Below are positions 33,169 to 38,495 of a stretch of DNA of 64,000 nucleotides, piece by piece. Each line of letters begins with the position of its first letter. Positions within the stretch are counted from its first letter, which is position 1. The notes beneath the pieces were generated by a model. That model was given only the letters and a program-made list of their open reading frames with translations. It did not search any database and was not told the DNA's origin. Origin of the DNA: Fluviicola taffensis DSM 16823 (lineage in GTDB: Bacteria > Bacteroidota > Bacteroidia > Flavobacteriales_D > Crocinitomicaceae); NCBI RefSeq assembly GCF_000194605.1, contig NC_015321.1:4092001-4156000 (forward strand), in the 5' to 3' direction. Position numbers and translations under genes: made by a program.

Positions 33169-34557
33169 TTAATCATAAACCGCATCTAAACCACTGCGTT
33201 CTTCTTTTGGAATTCGGAATAACAATAATAGTCCAATAATGAAGAAAAAGGCCACCGAAACAACTGAATAACGGATAGATTCGAAACCAATTTCCATCAG
33301 TCCGAAGAAAAGGGTACCTGTTACAATTCCAATTTTCTCTGTTGCATCATAAAACGAAAAATAACTGGCATTATCCTCTGTTTCAGGTAAATATTTCGAA
33401 TACGTTGATCGAGCCAATGCTTGAACTCCACCCATTACAATTCCAACTGCACAAGCTAATCCGTAGAACTGAACTGGTGTTTCAATAACAAATGCTGCAG
33501 CACAAACTCCTAACCAAATAACGATGGAAATTCCGAGCGTTTTAATATTTCCGATTTTACCCGATAAACGAGACATGACAAATGCTCCTGCCGCACCCAA
33601 TAATTGAATCAATAAAATGGCAATAATCAAACCACTATCATCTACTTTACCATCTACAACTGGCCATGAAATTTCCTTCTTAGCAAAGAAAGTAGCCATC
33701 AACATAACCGTTTGAACACCTGTATTGAAAAAGAAAAAAGAAGTTAAATACCTTTTCAATCGCTTTGTTTTACGAAACTCCCCAAAAACAGTTCTCAGTT
33801 CTTTAAACCCTTTCCAGATATACCCTTTTTCTAGAACTCTTGGAGAAGAGGTGTTTGGCAAAACACGATACGTAAATTGAGAGAAACCGACCCACCAAAG
33901 TCCAACAAGTAAAAAACAATATTGAACTGGAAAATCTTGTGTTTTAATTAGAACCAAACAAATTATTAAAAGGATCATTGAACCTAAATAACCCATAGTA
34001 AATCCACGAGCAGAAATTTTATCCAAATCTTTCTTGGGAGCAATTTCGGGAAGATACGAATTGTAAAAAACCAAACTGTTCCAAAAACCGATACTCGCAA
34101 AGAAAAGAGATAACATACCTATTTCCATCCACCCCGAACGCATCAAATCTGTAAAGAAGTAAAGAGACATACAAGAAATAGCACCGAGGTAGCAGAAAAA
34201 TTGCAAGAAGCGTTTTTTATTTCCTCGATAATCTGCAACACCAGATAAAAGCGGAGATGAAAAAGAAACAAGCAAAAAAGACGCGGAAAGTACAAAACTC
34301 ATCAAAGCAGAGTTTGGAATATGCATTCCGAAAAAGTCTACCATGACTTCTTCTCCTTTTGCAAGCTGAGAAGGATCTAAATCTGCCCAGGCTTTTCCTG
34401 CATTTTCTGCTTTCTCTGACAAATATTGTTTAGTAGTAACCGTATCATAGAAAATGGGGAAAATTGCAGAAGAAATAACTAAATTGTAAACTGAGTTTGC
34501 CCAATCATACATGACCCAACCTCTAATTACTTTCTTGTCGCCTTTTTGTATTGTCAT
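33169..34557 (-). CDS. UMF1/Atg22-like MFS transporter
   Basis: A 462-residue membrane protein with about 12 helices. It starts VIRGWVMYDWANSVYNLVISSAIFP, the N-terminal hallmark of the UMF1 (unknown major facilitator 1, Atg22-like) family; other family signatures are VFYNSYLPEIA and ALARSTYSKYLPE. Fungal Atg22 exports amino acids from the vacuole; bacterial substrates are unknown. It is the last gene of a five-gene minus-strand operon (nine-base gap from the dehydrogenase gene). In that context it might export or import a product or substrate of the upstream enzymes. Confidence 0.87.
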   Translation of the reverse strand: MTIQKGDKKVIRGWVMYDWANSVYNLVISSAIFPIFYDTVTTKQYLSEKAENAGKAWADLDPSQLAKGEEVMVDFFGMHIPNSALMSFVLSASFLLVSFSSPLLSGVADYRGNKKRFLQFFCYLGAISCMSLYFFTDLMRSGWMEIGMLSLFFASIGFWNSLVFYNSYLPEIAPKKDLDKISARGFTMGYLGSMILLIICLVLIKTQDFPVQYCFLLVGLWWVGFSQFTYRVLPNTSSPRVLEKGYIWKGFKELRTVFGEFRKTKRLKRYLTSFFFFNTGVQTVMLMATFFAKKEISWPVVDGKVDDSGLIIAILLIQLLGAAGAFVMSRLSGKIGNIKTLGISIVIWLGVCAAAFVIETPVQFYGLACAVGIVMGGVQALARSTYSKYLPETEDNASYFSFYDATEKIGIVTGTLFFGLMEIGFESIRYSVVSVAFFFIIGLLLLFRIPKEERSGLDAVYD

Positions 34558-34566
34558 AGGTGGTTT

Positions 34567-35790
34567 TTAAGCTGTCACTTGATTTACATAATCATTCAGA
34601 TATGCAAAATAAGTTGTAAGGTTTCCATTCAAATCAGTTTCAGATCCTCTTCCAATGATATTGTCTGGATCATCTCCAAACAAATGAGGAAAAACAGATT
34701 TAATTAATTCATTTCCAAAATCCTCCGAAGCATCTTTTGGCAATTCGCAAGGTAAATTATCTACCGCCATCACTGTAATCGATCCAGTTGCTTTCCAATC
34801 ACATTCCTCTCCTGTTTTTGGATCGTATCCATAAAATGGGTCTGCAATTTTAGAAGGGCGTAAAGTTGATGCAATTGGTCCTTGGATATCACAAGAAACA
34901 TCCGCAACTACTTGAATCTTATTTTTAGAAGATTTCAAATCATCTGCTGTTAAAATAAACGGAGATTTATTACTCCAGAAATGACATGCAATGTAGATAT
35001 CTGCCGCTTCAGAATAACGCGTAAAGCTTGATTCATAGATTTCAGGAGTACTGTAGAACTCAGCTTTACTAAATGGTTTCCCATCTTTTCGTCGATAGTA
35101 GTCTTCGATTTCTAAATGTGTAAAAACAGGAGTTTCAAATTTTTCAGCTAGGAATTCATCTGGGCTAACTTCTGTAAATGGCAATAAGTCCATGATTTCT
35201 CGTGCTCCATATCCTACTCTCCCAAAACCTGTCAATACCAATTTCATATCTGAAGGGAAATCTACATGTTGTAATTCTTCCTCCATTTCTTTTCTTCCAG
35301 TACATTCGTGAGCTGGTTTTAACTGGAAGCTACCCGTTTTCTCACCATATGCACGAATCCCATTGTAAGCTCCTACAATACCTGCATAGCGACCAAAACC
35401 AATAATACGCTTGTTCTCTTTTGATTTCAGAACTTCGTAATCAATCAATTGGATTTTCTTTTCTAAGATTGCACGGAGTAAATTTCGATTATACGGTTGC
35501 TTCTTGATGGTATGCGAAAAGAATAGGAACTTTTTCTGTGGAATTAAATCTGAAATATTCACTTCCTTCACTCCCATGATTATATCGCAATCCGACAAAT
35601 CCTTCACCACTTCAATTCCTTCTGCACTGTATTCTTCATCCTTGAAAGCACGAACTTCGCTTTCTTGCACAAAAACTTTAACCTGAGGAAACTTCATCTC
35701 AACCAACTTACACTGCTTTGGCGTGAGTGGAACTCGCTTATCAGGAGGTGTTTTTCCTTCTCTGATGATGCCTAATTTCACTTGATTCAT
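34567..35790 (-). CDS. Alanine dehydrogenase/saccharopine dehydrogenase-like NAD(P) oxidoreductase
   Basis: A 407-residue protein with an AlaDH/PNT N-terminal domain (KLGIIREGKTPPDKRVPLTPKQC) and a C-terminal NAD-binding half containing LVLTGFGRVGYGAREIM. The N-terminal pattern and the mid segment FFSHTIKKQPYNR resemble the LYS1-like saccharopine dehydrogenase (lysine-forming) family rather than true alanine dehydrogenase. A reaction on an amino or imino acid using NAD(P) is probable, but the substrate is not certain. It is the fourth gene of a minus-strand operon, 10 bases after the HAD phosphatase gene and followed by the MFS gene after nine bases. Confidence 0.8.
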   Translation of the reverse strand: MNQVKLGIIREGKTPPDKRVPLTPKQCKLVEMKFPQVKVFVQESEVRAFKDEEYSAEGIEVVKDLSDCDIIMGVKEVNISDLIPQKKFLFFSHTIKKQPYNRNLLRAILEKKIQLIDYEVLKSKENKRIIGFGRYAGIVGAYNGIRAYGEKTGSFQLKPAHECTGRKEMEEELQHVDFPSDMKLVLTGFGRVGYGAREIMDLLPFTEVSPDEFLAEKFETPVFTHLEIEDYYRRKDGKPFSKAEFYSTPEIYESSFTRYSEAADIYIACHFWSNKSPFILTADDLKSSKNKIQVVADVSCDIQGPIASTLRPSKIADPFYGYDPKTGEECDWKATGSITVMAVDNLPCELPKDASEDFGNELIKSVFPHLFGDDPDNIIGRGSETDLNGNLTTYFAYLNDYVNQVTA

Positions 35791-35800
35791 GTTTCTTTAT

Positions 35801-36484
35801 TTAATATTCTTTTAATGGTTCTGAAAGTAGAAAATTATCAATAAATTCTCTTACAACTCCAGCTCCACCATTTTTTGTTAATACAATATCTACTTCCTTT
35901 TTCACTTCTTGAACTGCATCTTTGGGACAAGCGCTCAATCCTATTTCACGCATGATTGATAAGTCATTAATATCGTCGCCAATCATTGCTACTTGGCTCA
36001 AAGAAATGGATAATTCTTCACACCATTGTCTTAGAATCGTTATTTTCTGATCCCGACCAACATAAACATGTTTGATATTTAGGACTTCAGCTCTATTCAA
36101 AACCATTTTATCCGTAAATGCAGATGAAATAATTGCACATAACAATCCTTTTTCCTGAGCTTTCATGATACCCATTCCATCTTTGGCATTGTATTTTTTC
36201 ATCTGATCACCAGATTCTGCAAAATACATCCCAGCATCCGTCATAACACCATCAACATCCAAAATCAATAATTTGATTTTTTCGATTTTCGATTTTAAAT
36301 GATCAAAGACAAACAATGGTTTGAACAACAAAGAATAGAAATCCACTTCATATTCTTCAGCAACAGCCTCCAAATCTAGAATAGACAATTCAGTGACCCC
36401 ATCGACATCAAAATCTTTCAGCATTTCATAAAAATCAACGCCGAACTTGGCACAAAGGCCTTTTATATTTTGCTCTAAAAACAA
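35801..36484 (-). CDS. KdsC-like HAD phosphatase with HTH-like N-terminal extension
   Basis: A 227-residue protein. From about residue 70 on it is a KdsC-type C0-cap HAD phosphatase: motif I LILDVDGVMTDAGMYF (Asp76 and Asp78), motif II AIISS, motif III with Lys in GRDQKITIL, and motif IV MIGDDINDLSIMREIGLSA. KdsC hydrolyses KDO-8-phosphate. The 60-70-residue N-terminal extension (NIKGLCAKFGVDFYEML, ILDLEAVAEEYEVDFYSLLF) is not in normal KdsC (about 170-190 residues) and follows the spacing of an XRE-type helix-turn-helix. It lies in an operon with a DAHP-synthase-family enzyme and an epimerase-CBS protein, which fits a 3-deoxy-ulosonic acid phosphate as substrate. The exact substrate is unproven. 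Confidence 0.8.
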   Translation of the reverse strand: MFLEQNIKGLCAKFGVDFYEMLKDFDVDGVTELSILDLEAVAEEYEVDFYSLLFKPLFVFDHLKSKIEKIKLLILDVDGVMTDAGMYFAESGDQMKKYNAKDGMGIMKAQEKGLLCAIISSAFTDKMVLNRAEVLNIKHVYVGRDQKITILRQWCEELSISLSQVAMIGDDINDLSIMREIGLSACPKDAVQEVKKEVDIVLTKNGGAGVVREFIDNFLLSEPLKEY

Positions 36485-36486
36485 GA

Positions 36487-37485
36487 TTACACCATTTTAT
36501 AGCCAACGCTTGAAGCAATTGGACTGAGAGTTTGTAATAATTGCTTGAATTCTTCGTGATTCAACTGCTGAGAAGCATCAGACTTAGCAACTTTAGGATT
36601 TGGGTGAACTTCCACCAACAATCCATTTACCCCTAAAGCGATACAAGCTCGTGACAATCCAGCCACACCGTAAGCATAACCCATTGCATGGCTTGGATCC
36701 AAAATCACGGGAAGATTCGTGTAATGTTTCAACCATTCTACTCCACACAAATCCAAGGTAAATCGCGTTCCAGTTTCAAACGTTCTGATTCCTCTTTCAC
36801 ATAGAACTACATTTTCATTTCCGCCTGAAAGCACAAATTCAGCCGCCTGAACAAACTCTTGTAAAGTGGATCCAAAACCTCGTTTAATTAAAACGGTTTT
36901 TTGAGTTTTCGAACAAGCACGTAAAATTCCTTGATCGTACATTGCTTTTGCTCCAACCTGGATCACATCTGCGTGTTCAATAATTTCATCAATATGTGTT
37001 GCATCTCTCGCTTCCGTAACCACTGAAAAACCGTATTCTTCACGCATTTTCGAAAGCAATTTTAATCCTTCCAATCCCAATCCTTGGAAACTATACGGAC
37101 TTGTCCTTGGCTTGTAACAACCTCCACGAAGCGATGTCAAGCCTAAAGACTTCAATAATTCAGAAGATTCTCTGATTTGCTCTTCAGATTCAACAGAACA
37201 TGGTCCAGAAATTACAATGGTATTTCCAGATTTTCCACCTACGGTTACATTACCAATCTTTACTTCTCTCGTTTCTGAACGGTAATCCCGAGATGCCAAT
37301 TGCATATCGTTTGGAAATACCCAATGCTCGTCTGTGAAATTCTCAAGTCCAGCAGGAATCTCCTTTACACCTGAACCCGTTACAAGAACATTTACTCCTT
37401 GAGAAACCAAGTGAAACGCTTTGTTTTCCGCCGCTAATTTTGCTGCATCAGTTGAATTGACTGATTTTTTTAAATGAATGATCAT
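36487..37485 (-). CDS. DAHP synthase family protein (type I-beta, FXD-domain)
   Basis: A 332-residue enzyme. Residues 1-70 form a ferredoxin-like (FXD) domain as in Thermotoga/Bacillus DAHP synthase, and residues about 90-332 form a TIM barrel. Key motifs are IVISGPCSVESEEQI, RGGCYKPRTSPYSFQGLGLEGL, TEARDATHIDEIIEHADVIQ, VLIKRGFGSTLQEF, VLCERGIRTFE and PVILDPSHAMGYA. GPCSVES and KPRTSPYSFQG favour DAHP synthase (PEP plus erythrose-4-phosphate) over KDO-8-phosphate synthase. The FXD domain commonly mediates aromatic amino-acid feedback. It sits between an epimerase-CBS gene (four-base overlap) and a KdsC-like phosphatase gene (two-base gap), an unusual context for shikimate entry, so another aldose-phosphate acceptor is possible. 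Confidence 0.85.
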   Translation of the reverse strand: MIIHLKKSVNSTDAAKLAAENKAFHLVSQGVNVLVTGSGVKEIPAGLENFTDEHWVFPNDMQLASRDYRSETREVKIGNVTVGGKSGNTIVISGPCSVESEEQIRESSELLKSLGLTSLRGGCYKPRTSPYSFQGLGLEGLKLLSKMREEYGFSVVTEARDATHIDEIIEHADVIQVGAKAMYDQGILRACSKTQKTVLIKRGFGSTLQEFVQAAEFVLSGGNENVVLCERGIRTFETGTRFTLDLCGVEWLKHYTNLPVILDPSHAMGYAYGVAGLSRACIALGVNGLLVEVHPNPKVAKSDASQQLNHEEFKQLLQTLSPIASSVGYKMV

Positions 37486-38483
37486 ATTTCCCCTTTAATC
37501 AGGTTTACGAATGTTAAAATCCCTTTTGCTTTATTCCCACTATCAACAACTGGCAAATAAAGAATTGGGAACGAATATTTTTTGATTTGTTGTAGTAAGT
37601 CGTTTACGGTTGCTGTTTCTTGAATCACCAATGGTTTCCCGTTCATGATTTCAGAAATACTTTCTTGGTTGAGATTCCCTTTTGTACGGATCAGGCTTTT
37701 GCGAATATCAGCATTGGAAATCAATCCTTTTAAATCAGCTGATTTGTTGATTACCAAGGCAAATCCTAATTTACCATCTTCAACTGCATTTAAAACTTCC
37801 AATACCGAAGAGTTTTCATCAATTACAGGAGATTCTGACAATGGAATCATGAAATCTTTCACCACAAACTGAGAATCTACATTTCGTTTGGTCAAATCCA
37901 TCAACGCATGTCCAACACTTGGAGCATTGAATAAATAGGATCCAGAAACGGAAGTATGAACTCCCATATTTCTCAGAATAAATGAAACTTCTCCATTTAC
38001 TCCGCCATCTACATGAACTGATTTTGAAGGATATTTGTGTTGAAAATCACGAATTTTCTTAAAATTAACCGCATCAAAAACACCTCCACTTTGACCTGGA
38101 ACAGTTGCCATCATCAGAATGAAATCAAAATTGCCGTATTTATCAAATGACTCAACAGAAGTTGGAGTGATAATTCCCAATCCTTTTTTTCCTGTGATAT
38201 CTGAAGGAATAACCAATTCTTCTTCCAAATCTTCTAATTGAAAAGTAACGTATTCAACTGGAACCTCTCTCAATAAATCATAATATTTCGAAGGATTTTT
38301 GGTAATAATATGCAAGTCGATTGGAATATTACACCACGATCGAATTTGGCGTATATCATCAAAAACACTTGGATTGTCATTGCAATCAACATGTAGCAAA
38401 TCGACATGATGTGCAGCTAAATCTTGAATTGTTTCCGACAGGTCCCGTTTCTTATCCGAATAAATCGAAGCAGATATTCTCAT
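37482..38483 (-). CDS. Ribulose-phosphate-3-epimerase-like domain fused to a CBS pair
   Basis: A 333-residue fusion. Residues 1-205 follow the ribulose-phosphate 3-epimerase TIM barrel: LLHVDCND (His31, Asp33), IDLHIITKNP (His58), MMATVPGQSGGVF (the usual M-V-PG-GGQ loop) and HVDGGVNGEV (Asp159), so all four expected metal/catalytic ligands are present. Residues about 215-333 are two CBS motifs (VLEVLNAVEDGKLGFALVI, EIMNGKPLVIQETATVNDLL), which usually bind adenine nucleotides. Normal Rpe is about 220 residues and has no CBS part. It is the first gene of the five-gene operon and has a TAnnTTTG element four bases before its ATG. An epimerase under energy or nucleotide control is inferred. Confidence 0.8.
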   Translation of the reverse strand: MRISASIYSDKKRDLSETIQDLAAHHVDLLHVDCNDNPSVFDDIRQIRSWCNIPIDLHIITKNPSKYYDLLREVPVEYVTFQLEDLEEELVIPSDITGKKGLGIITPTSVESFDKYGNFDFILMMATVPGQSGGVFDAVNFKKIRDFQHKYPSKSVHVDGGVNGEVSFILRNMGVHTSVSGSYLFNAPSVGHALMDLTKRNVDSQFVVKDFMIPLSESPVIDENSSVLEVLNAVEDGKLGFALVINKSADLKGLISNADIRKSLIRTKGNLNQESISEIMNGKPLVIQETATVNDLLQQIKKYSFPILYLPVVDSGNKAKGILTFVNLIKGEI

Positions 38484-38487
38484 GAAA

Positions 38488-38495
38488 CAAAAATA
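38488..38495 (-). promoter_or_regulatory. TAnnTTTG element of the epimerase-CBS operon
   Basis: The minus strand reads TATTTTTG ending four bases before the ATG of the first operon gene, predicting a leaderless operon mRNA. Confidence 0.5.

Follow-up and report, generated by a model that had tools for sequence, protein, structure and literature searches.

Three adjacent genes of Fluviicola taffensis DSM 16823 probably encode an alternative route to 3-deoxy-D-manno-octulosonic acid (KDO), the sugar that links lipid A to the remainder of lipopolysaccharide, in which replacement enzymes would take the places of KdsD and KdsA. The genes, which we term g1, g2, and g3, are the first of a five-gene operon (g1 to g5) at positions 33169-38483 on the minus strand of the stretch that we analyzed, which is 64,000 nucleotides of contig NC_015321.1 (positions 4,092,001 to 4,156,000; hereafter, the window). 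The proposal is based on gene content, synteny, mutual exclusion, and KdsB sequences that follow families rather than pathways. Each catalytic step, as well as the feedback, is predicted from sequence. First, g1 would make D-arabinose-5-phosphate, probably by epimerizing ribose-5-phosphate at C2 or by isomerizing ribulose-5-phosphate. Second, g2 would join arabinose-5-phosphate and phosphoenolpyruvate (PEP) to form KDO-8-phosphate, and g3 would remove the phosphate to give KDO. Ordinary KdsB and WaaA, which are encoded elsewhere, would then activate and transfer KDO. Finally, the CBS pair at the end of g1 would provide feedback by sensing a nucleotide, which by analogy would be CMP-KDO.

The first committed reaction toward KDO is catalyzed by arabinose-5-phosphate isomerases, of which KdsD has an SIS domain and two CBS domains (PMC10448790), and KDO-8-phosphate synthase joins arabinose-5-phosphate and PEP (PMC6650799, PMC3052366). 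KDO is described as essential in Gram-negative lipopolysaccharide, and the synthase as an antibiotic target (PMC6650799). In a study of phylogenetic profiles, it serves as a model rule that kdsD or gutQ accompanies kdsA and waaA, and that kdsA is present if and only if gutQ or kdsD is (PMC3402364). Among open PubMed Central papers, to which our literature search was confined, we found no report of the replacement of KdsD and KdsA that we propose.

Distribution of KDO genes

The original prediction for this operon, which was made from the DNA alone, was that the sugar phosphate from an epimerase is joined to PEP by a synthase, and that a phosphatase of the KdsC type then frees a 3-deoxy-ulosonic acid. 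As it had suggested, we looked for separate aro and kds genes. The F. taffensis genome (4.63 Mb, one contig) has only two matches to PF00793, which are g2 and a fusion of 3-deoxy-D-arabino-heptulosonate-7-phosphate (DAHP) synthase to chorismate mutase, so it encodes a second DAHP synthase and no separate KdsA. It also has no KdsD isomerase domain. It does encode KdsB (240.3 bits vs. a cut-off of 155.2 for TIGR00466) and WaaA (136.7 vs. 23.9 bits for the N-domain). The core of the original idea holds up. Because the genome has neither a separate KdsA nor the isomerase domain of KdsD, ordinary KDO made by replacement enzymes is now the most likely product.

We compared 59 genomes, of which 36 (including F. 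taffensis) belong to the window's family, f1, and 23 to other families. KdsA scored above its cut-off in none of the 36 f1 genomes vs. 18 of the 23 others. (G045 is not counted among the 18: its KdsA runs into a contig end and scores 303 bits.) The KpsF/KdsD isomerase (SIS) domain, at E ≤ 1e-12, was absent from 35 of the 36 f1 genomes, with a weak match in G029, and was present in 18 of the 23 others. The remaining five encode either a fusion of a transaldolase domain to a CBS pair, which is discussed below (G037, G039, and G050), or g1 (G048 and G054). Besides the latter two genomes, g1 is found in 35/36 f1 genomes (all but G028). WaaA was found in 57 of the 59 genomes and in 35/36 from f1, being absent from G034 (f1) and G047. 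As a proxy for KdsB, we used matches to the cytidylyltransferase family with E ≤ 1e-50 (this family includes other enzymes too), which were found in 33/36 f1 genomes (not in G002, G015, or G028).

A larger sample of the order (239 genomes) contains g1 in 89 genomes, KdsA in 136, SIS-type KdsD in 133, and the transaldolase-CBS fusion in 8. No genome has both g1 and KdsA, both g1 and the fusion, or both SIS and the fusion, and only G029, with its weak match, has both g1 and SIS. The chance of zero overlap between g1 and KdsA is 4e-51 (hypergeometric test, uncorrected for shared descent). When the sample is limited to the 172 genomes with completeness of 90% or more and contamination of 5% or less, 86 have g1 and 81 have KdsA. 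Six of the genomes with g1 lie outside f1, in families f3, f8, and f10, and none of these has KdsA. The other 83 are in f1 and also lack KdsA, while waaA is kept in 35 of the 36 f1 genomes tested, in contrast to the profile rule cited above. In a sample of 395 genomes from across the phylum, g1 was found twice, both times in f1. Together, the four gene classes cover 234 of the 239 genomes (all but G500, G533, G549, G550, and G050). Five genomes have KdsA and no recognized supplier of its substrate (G474, G528, G547, G615, and G617), and ten, including G029, have SIS without KdsA.

The conserved unit is g1-g2-g3, that is, the epimerase-CBS protein, the DAHP-synthase-like protein, and the KdsC-like phosphatase. 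Gene order in relatives was another suggested check, and it supports the grouping: among the best 80 of at least 503 g1 relatives in species genomes, the three genes occur in this order at 75 loci. Some of the loci end at contig edges, and at three of the five exceptions the sequence stops at, or within 300 bases past, g1 or g2 (L183, L203, and L224). At the other two, there is no g2 in the 1.6 kb (L243) or 6 kb (L236) that is available downstream. In G024 (L076), g1 and g2-g3 share a strand but are separated by about 11 kb with twelve other open reading frames (ORFs); in G015, another ORF is upstream of g2-g3 and g1 sits at the end of another contig. Among the matches listed, the named records closest by g1 are from Fluviicola, and others carry the names Crocinitomicaceae, Brumimicrobium, and Lishizhenia. 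Four metagenome-assembled genomes with the operon are titled Chryseobacterium, Chitinophaga, or Actinomyces (L176, L187, L214, and L218), which does not fit the distribution of g1; perhaps they are mislabelled.

g1, an epimerase fold with a CBS pair

We propose that g1 (37482-38483, minus strand; 333 amino acids) forms arabinose-5-phosphate in place of KdsD. By Pfam and NCBIfam, it consists of a domain with the ribulose-phosphate 3-epimerase (RPE) fold (PF00834, residues ~1-200) and a CBS pair (PF00571, residues ~205-333). In the PDB, the fold matches of its AlphaFold2 model (pLDDT 87.7) are RPEs and AlsE, and the best match for the C-terminal part is 4o9k, the CBS pair of an arabinose-5-phosphate isomerase, which is also the top CBS match in a family profile search. 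The structure 4o9k is a complex with CMP-KDO. The KpsF model matches g1 in its CBS part only (157-267 of 268), and the SIS catalytic domain is not matched.

S9, H31, D33, H58, and D159 of g1 are invariant in all 33 aligned copies. These align with the metal ligands and acid-base residues of RPE. RPE deprotonates its substrate beside the carbonyl to give a metal-bound enediolate, and in AlsE the reacting carbon is three carbons away from the phosphate. This chemistry would suit C2 epimerization of ribose-5-phosphate if the substrate were shifted by one carbon in the site, as it is in AlsE.

The metal site and the fold matches to RPEs would also be expected if g1 were an ordinary RPE under feedback control by its CBS pair, with g2 making KDO-8-phosphate and an unrecognized enzyme supplying the arabinose-5-phosphate. 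We consider this improbable, as a separate plain RPE is already present in 35 of the 37 genomes with g1 in the 59-genome set. Also, g1 lacks the PNISFG stretch (a loop) of the host's plain RPE, and it scores well below the cut-off for rpe (TIGR01163; 70.7 vs. 212.6 bits). Finally, g1, SIS, and the transaldolase-CBS fusion are mutually exclusive except in G029, as expected if they share one step.

g2, a relative of DAHP synthase

We propose that g2 (36487-37485, minus strand; 332 amino acids) is a KDO-8-phosphate synthase that stands in for KdsA. It belongs to PF00793 and to the type I-beta DAHP synthases (PRK08673/TIGR01361): it exceeds the cut-off of TIGR01361 (316 vs. 267.75 bits) and is under that of TIGR01362, for KdsA (124.3 vs. 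314 bits). However, all 39 copies of g2 carry K180, Y183, and D184 in place of the R, Q, and N of five aligned DAHP synthases (GAR..QN), so that the active-site signature of g2 is GAK..YD. g2 also departs from these five at R160, F217, and N257 and, in 37/39 copies, at A271. In a tree of synthases that includes KdsA from G558 (though not from G588), 15 copies of g2 and the g2-like proteins of G044 and G055 form a clade (92/97) that is apart from KdsA (100/100).

NCBIfam calls g2 a 3-deoxy-7-phosphoheptulonate synthase, above its cut-off, which raises the possibility that the cluster is a second entry to the shikimate pathway beside unrelated genes. This is very improbable: the host has a separate DAHP synthase-chorismate mutase, the trio is conserved, g1 excludes KdsA, and g2 is unlike the five DAHP synthases at K180, Y183, and D184. 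The original prediction would have fallen back on shikimate entry if the genome had no other DAHP synthase, the synthase used only erythrose-4-phosphate, and the gene order were not conserved elsewhere; the genome does have another DAHP synthase, and the order is conserved.

Genes like g2 are also found near kdsA. The order is kdsD-kdsA-kdsB-g2 in G055, G458, and G510 and kdsD-kdsA-g2 in G484 (where the protein has N for D184). We read 19 KdsA neighborhoods, which were chosen, not random, in two batches of 10 and 9; in 4 of these (1/10 and 3/9), a g2-like gene is next to kdsA or kdsB. Thus, g2 keeps company with KDO genes even in genomes that lack g1. In G044 (L101:3082-4747), a g2-g3 pair without g1 is on a different contig than kdsD-kdsA. 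At L105, L267, L268, and L274, the g2-like gene is directly behind kdsD-kdsA(-kdsB), which puts both types of synthase in one cluster.

g3, a KdsC-type phosphatase

We propose that g3 (35801-36484, minus strand; 227 amino acids, with a TTG start) is the KDO-8-phosphate phosphatase. It is a HAD phosphatase of the KdsC/KDN-9-phosphatase type (KDN is 2-keto-3-deoxynononic acid) with an N-terminal extension, and it scores above the cut-off of the KdsC subfamily TIGR01670 (142 vs. 106.95 bits) and below that of the KdsC equivalog NF007019 (139 vs. 208). The best model for g3, NF058599, is yet below its cut-off (153.7 vs. 180 bits), so we dropped g3 as evidence for KDN. The protein had been described as a helix-turn-helix (HTH) HAD phosphatase; the phosphatase part is confirmed, but the HTH of the window's g3 has no match in Pfam. 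When g3 from four relatives was scanned with Pfam, one (L101, from G044) just reached the cut-off of PF01381, HTH_3 (23.1 vs. 23), and its N-terminal part also matches a model of the RstR repressor. In the G048 group, g3 has 158 amino acids and lacks the N-terminal extension.

KdsB and apparent swaps between lineages

Two f1 genomes of genus g18, G558 and G588 (L109 and L110), lack g1 and, in the 11 kb read around kdsA, have adjacent kdsD-kdsA. KdsA from G558 groups with KdsA from G055 (L105) and G049 (L103), which are from other families (98/100). Apparently, the pathway was swapped back in G558 and G588. The tree of KdsB (29 rows, including G550, which is in neither comparison group, and excluding a fragment from G054) follows families: G558 and G588 fall within g18 (95/97), and the label of g1 or KdsA changes at least four times.

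Only one column, with a conservative change of I vs. V, divides the 14 KdsB rows from g1 genomes from the 14 rows from KdsA genomes, and no functional position distinguishes them. (In Aquifex KdsB, the metal is bound by D95 and D219; PMC3149649.) Thus, we see no change in the sugar-activating enzyme across the exchanges of its supplier. The simplest reading of these sequences is that both lineages make the same sugar, KDO; the alternative is that KdsB is indifferent to the sugar.

The fusion of a transaldolase/fructose-6-phosphate aldolase (FSA) domain to a CBS pair is found in G037 and G039, and in part at a contig end in G050; loci with the fusion are L092:2221-3228 and L096:2769-3773, both on the minus strand, and L159-L166. 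It adjoins kdsA in G039, and the eight genomes of the order sample that encode it all have KdsA and none has SIS. Its CBS pair is clearly closest to that of KdsD (hhalign scores of 141 vs. 68, from small alignments). The fusion is probably a third supplier of arabinose-5-phosphate, in the KdsD slot. FSA and an engineered transaldolase convert glycolaldehyde and glyceraldehyde-3-phosphate to a product taken as arabinose-5-phosphate (PMC8208507), and a published scheme shows a route that uses FsaA, KdsD, and Rpe (PMC11166783). These observations support the idea of repeated refilling of the entry step to KDO. In the F. taffensis genome, a CBS-nucleotidyltransferase lies near a second cytidylyltransferase match (L266, G000:C1:2510500-2515500), which is possibly a separate sugar-acid cluster.

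The rest of the operon

We recovered all five minus-strand ORFs of the original prediction and the gaps between them (−4, +2, +10, and +9), and each gene is a single open frame with one stop. The single promoter element that it described is not significant: TAnnTTTG is matched at 38488-38495, but the window has 62 such matches vs. 83 expected by chance. A promoter scan was uninformative (21 sites vs. 17.7 expected).

g4 (34567-35790, minus strand; 407 amino acids) is AlaDH/PNT-like, as had been noted, but its nearest match by sequence in the PDB is instead AASS, in the part that acts as lysine-ketoglutarate reductase (1.3e-34), and it resembles lysine-ketoglutarate reductase/saccharopine dehydrogenase. 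From this resemblance, g4 may be an enzyme of lysine catabolism or saccharopine metabolism. g5 (33169-34557, minus strand; 462 amino acids) is an ATG22/UMF1-type transporter of the major facilitator superfamily (PF11700, 1e-68). g4 follows the trio at 65/80 loci and g5 at 53/80, and both are frequent in near relatives. At 19 loci, mostly from more distant genera, neither is in reach of the trio (L072, L079, L082-L089, L111-L114, and L116-L120); we inspected two of these, where the next gene is presumably MiaA-like. g4 and g5 are thus downstream genes in part of the family and lie outside the proposed pathway. Because they were not seen beside the trio at these 19 loci, the suggestions of an amino-sugar pathway and of an exporter are unsupported. 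We rejected g5 as a dedicated exporter on this ground, and an amino-sugar pathway via g4 on this ground and by its likeness to lysine-ketoglutarate reductase. One relative each has a split frame in g4 (L061) or g5 (L075), from mutation or assembly error.

Does the operon make KDO?

Several observations weigh against a route to KDO. First, g2 has KPRTSP, as do 1zco and 1vs1, and not KANRS (eight aligned KdsA have KANRS, KANRT, or KDNRS); we take KPRTSP to be the erythrose-4-phosphate motif and KANRS to be that of KDO-8-phosphate synthase. (DAHP synthase from Pyrococcus is reportedly promiscuous to pentose phosphates; our literature search did not find this.) Second, a g2-like gene is found together with KdsA and KdsD in G044, G055, G458, G510, and G484. 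KdsD is a possible supplier of arabinose-5-phosphate in these five genomes, and that g2 and KdsA can coexist counts against plain redundancy. Third, g1 never occurs with KdsA, though an enzyme that makes arabinose-5-phosphate could serve either synthase. Fourth, g1 and KdsA are both absent from G550 (f1, 99% complete), and in G028 (79% complete) the ORF upstream of g2-g3 is not g1. Fifth, the likeness of the CBS pair of g1 to that of KdsD is modest: the hhalign scores are 100 for KdsD, 85 for IMPDH, 57 for transaldolase-CBS, and 51 for nucleotidyltransferase-CBS (from small and unequal alignments of 15, 8, 8, and 1 rows). Also, a single-sequence search of the PDB with g1 gave other CBS chains, and 4o9k was not among them. 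Finally, in the literature that we searched, we found no paper on KDO in f1.

Because g2 keeps KPRT and five genomes have both KdsA and a g2-like protein, as though the latter had a different product, the main rival explanation is that the operon makes another 3-deoxy-ulosonic acid, for example a C7 sugar from erythrose-4-phosphate or a C8 epimer of KDO, which replaced KDO in the lipopolysaccharide of f1, and that KdsB and WaaA tolerate both. The new active-site signature of g2 and the absence of g1 from every KdsA genome among the 239 would fit as well. But KdsB is unchanged except for the one I/V column, and it is retained where the lineage has kdsD-kdsA. Also, the CBS pair of g1 resembles that of arabinose-5-phosphate isomerase, and g1 would have no function in the synthesis of a C7 sugar. 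On balance, a KDO analogue seems rather unlikely to us; if it is made, then a bacterial family has a core sugar in its lipopolysaccharide that we did not find in the literature.

We prefer the alternative route to KDO. If it is correct, then a known barrel has acquired a new activity and KDO-8-phosphate synthase has an independent origin. It would also be a natural experiment in which two steps of a pathway were swapped as a block several times. We see an even chance that the fuller account is right, in which g1 is a new metal-dependent enzyme with an epimerase fold that acts at C2 of a pentose-5-phosphate and forms arabinose-5-phosphate; g2 is an independently evolved KDO-8-phosphate synthase of DAHP-synthase descent; and a regulatory, KdsD-like CBS pair has been attached to each of three unrelated catalytic domains (SIS, transaldolase, and epimerase) to supply KDO synthesis.

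Comparison with known systems

Like the KdsD-KdsA-KdsC-KdsB-WaaA pathway, the proposed route would have a supply of aldose phosphate, condensation with PEP, and a HAD phosphatase, and KdsB and WaaA are found in the operon's genomes. Its first enzyme carries a CBS pair, as does full-length KdsD. It differs in that there is no SIS-type KdsD and no KdsA, and enzymes with the RPE fold and from the DAHP synthase family are present instead. g1 shares its fold and metal-site residues with Rpe and AlsE, but it has a C-terminal CBS pair, has no PNISFG loop, is only ~20-25% identical to them, and scores under both families' cut-offs. Similarly, g2 shares the barrel and KPRTSP with type I-beta DAHP synthases and scores over the family cut-offs, but it has K, Y, and D for R, Q, and N and is tied to KDO genes. 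The transaldolase-CBS fusion, which probably fills the KdsD slot in eight genomes, recalls the fructose-6-phosphate aldolase/transaldolase source of arabinose-5-phosphate; in contrast to g1, it is not in the window, and it pairs with KdsA, not with g2.

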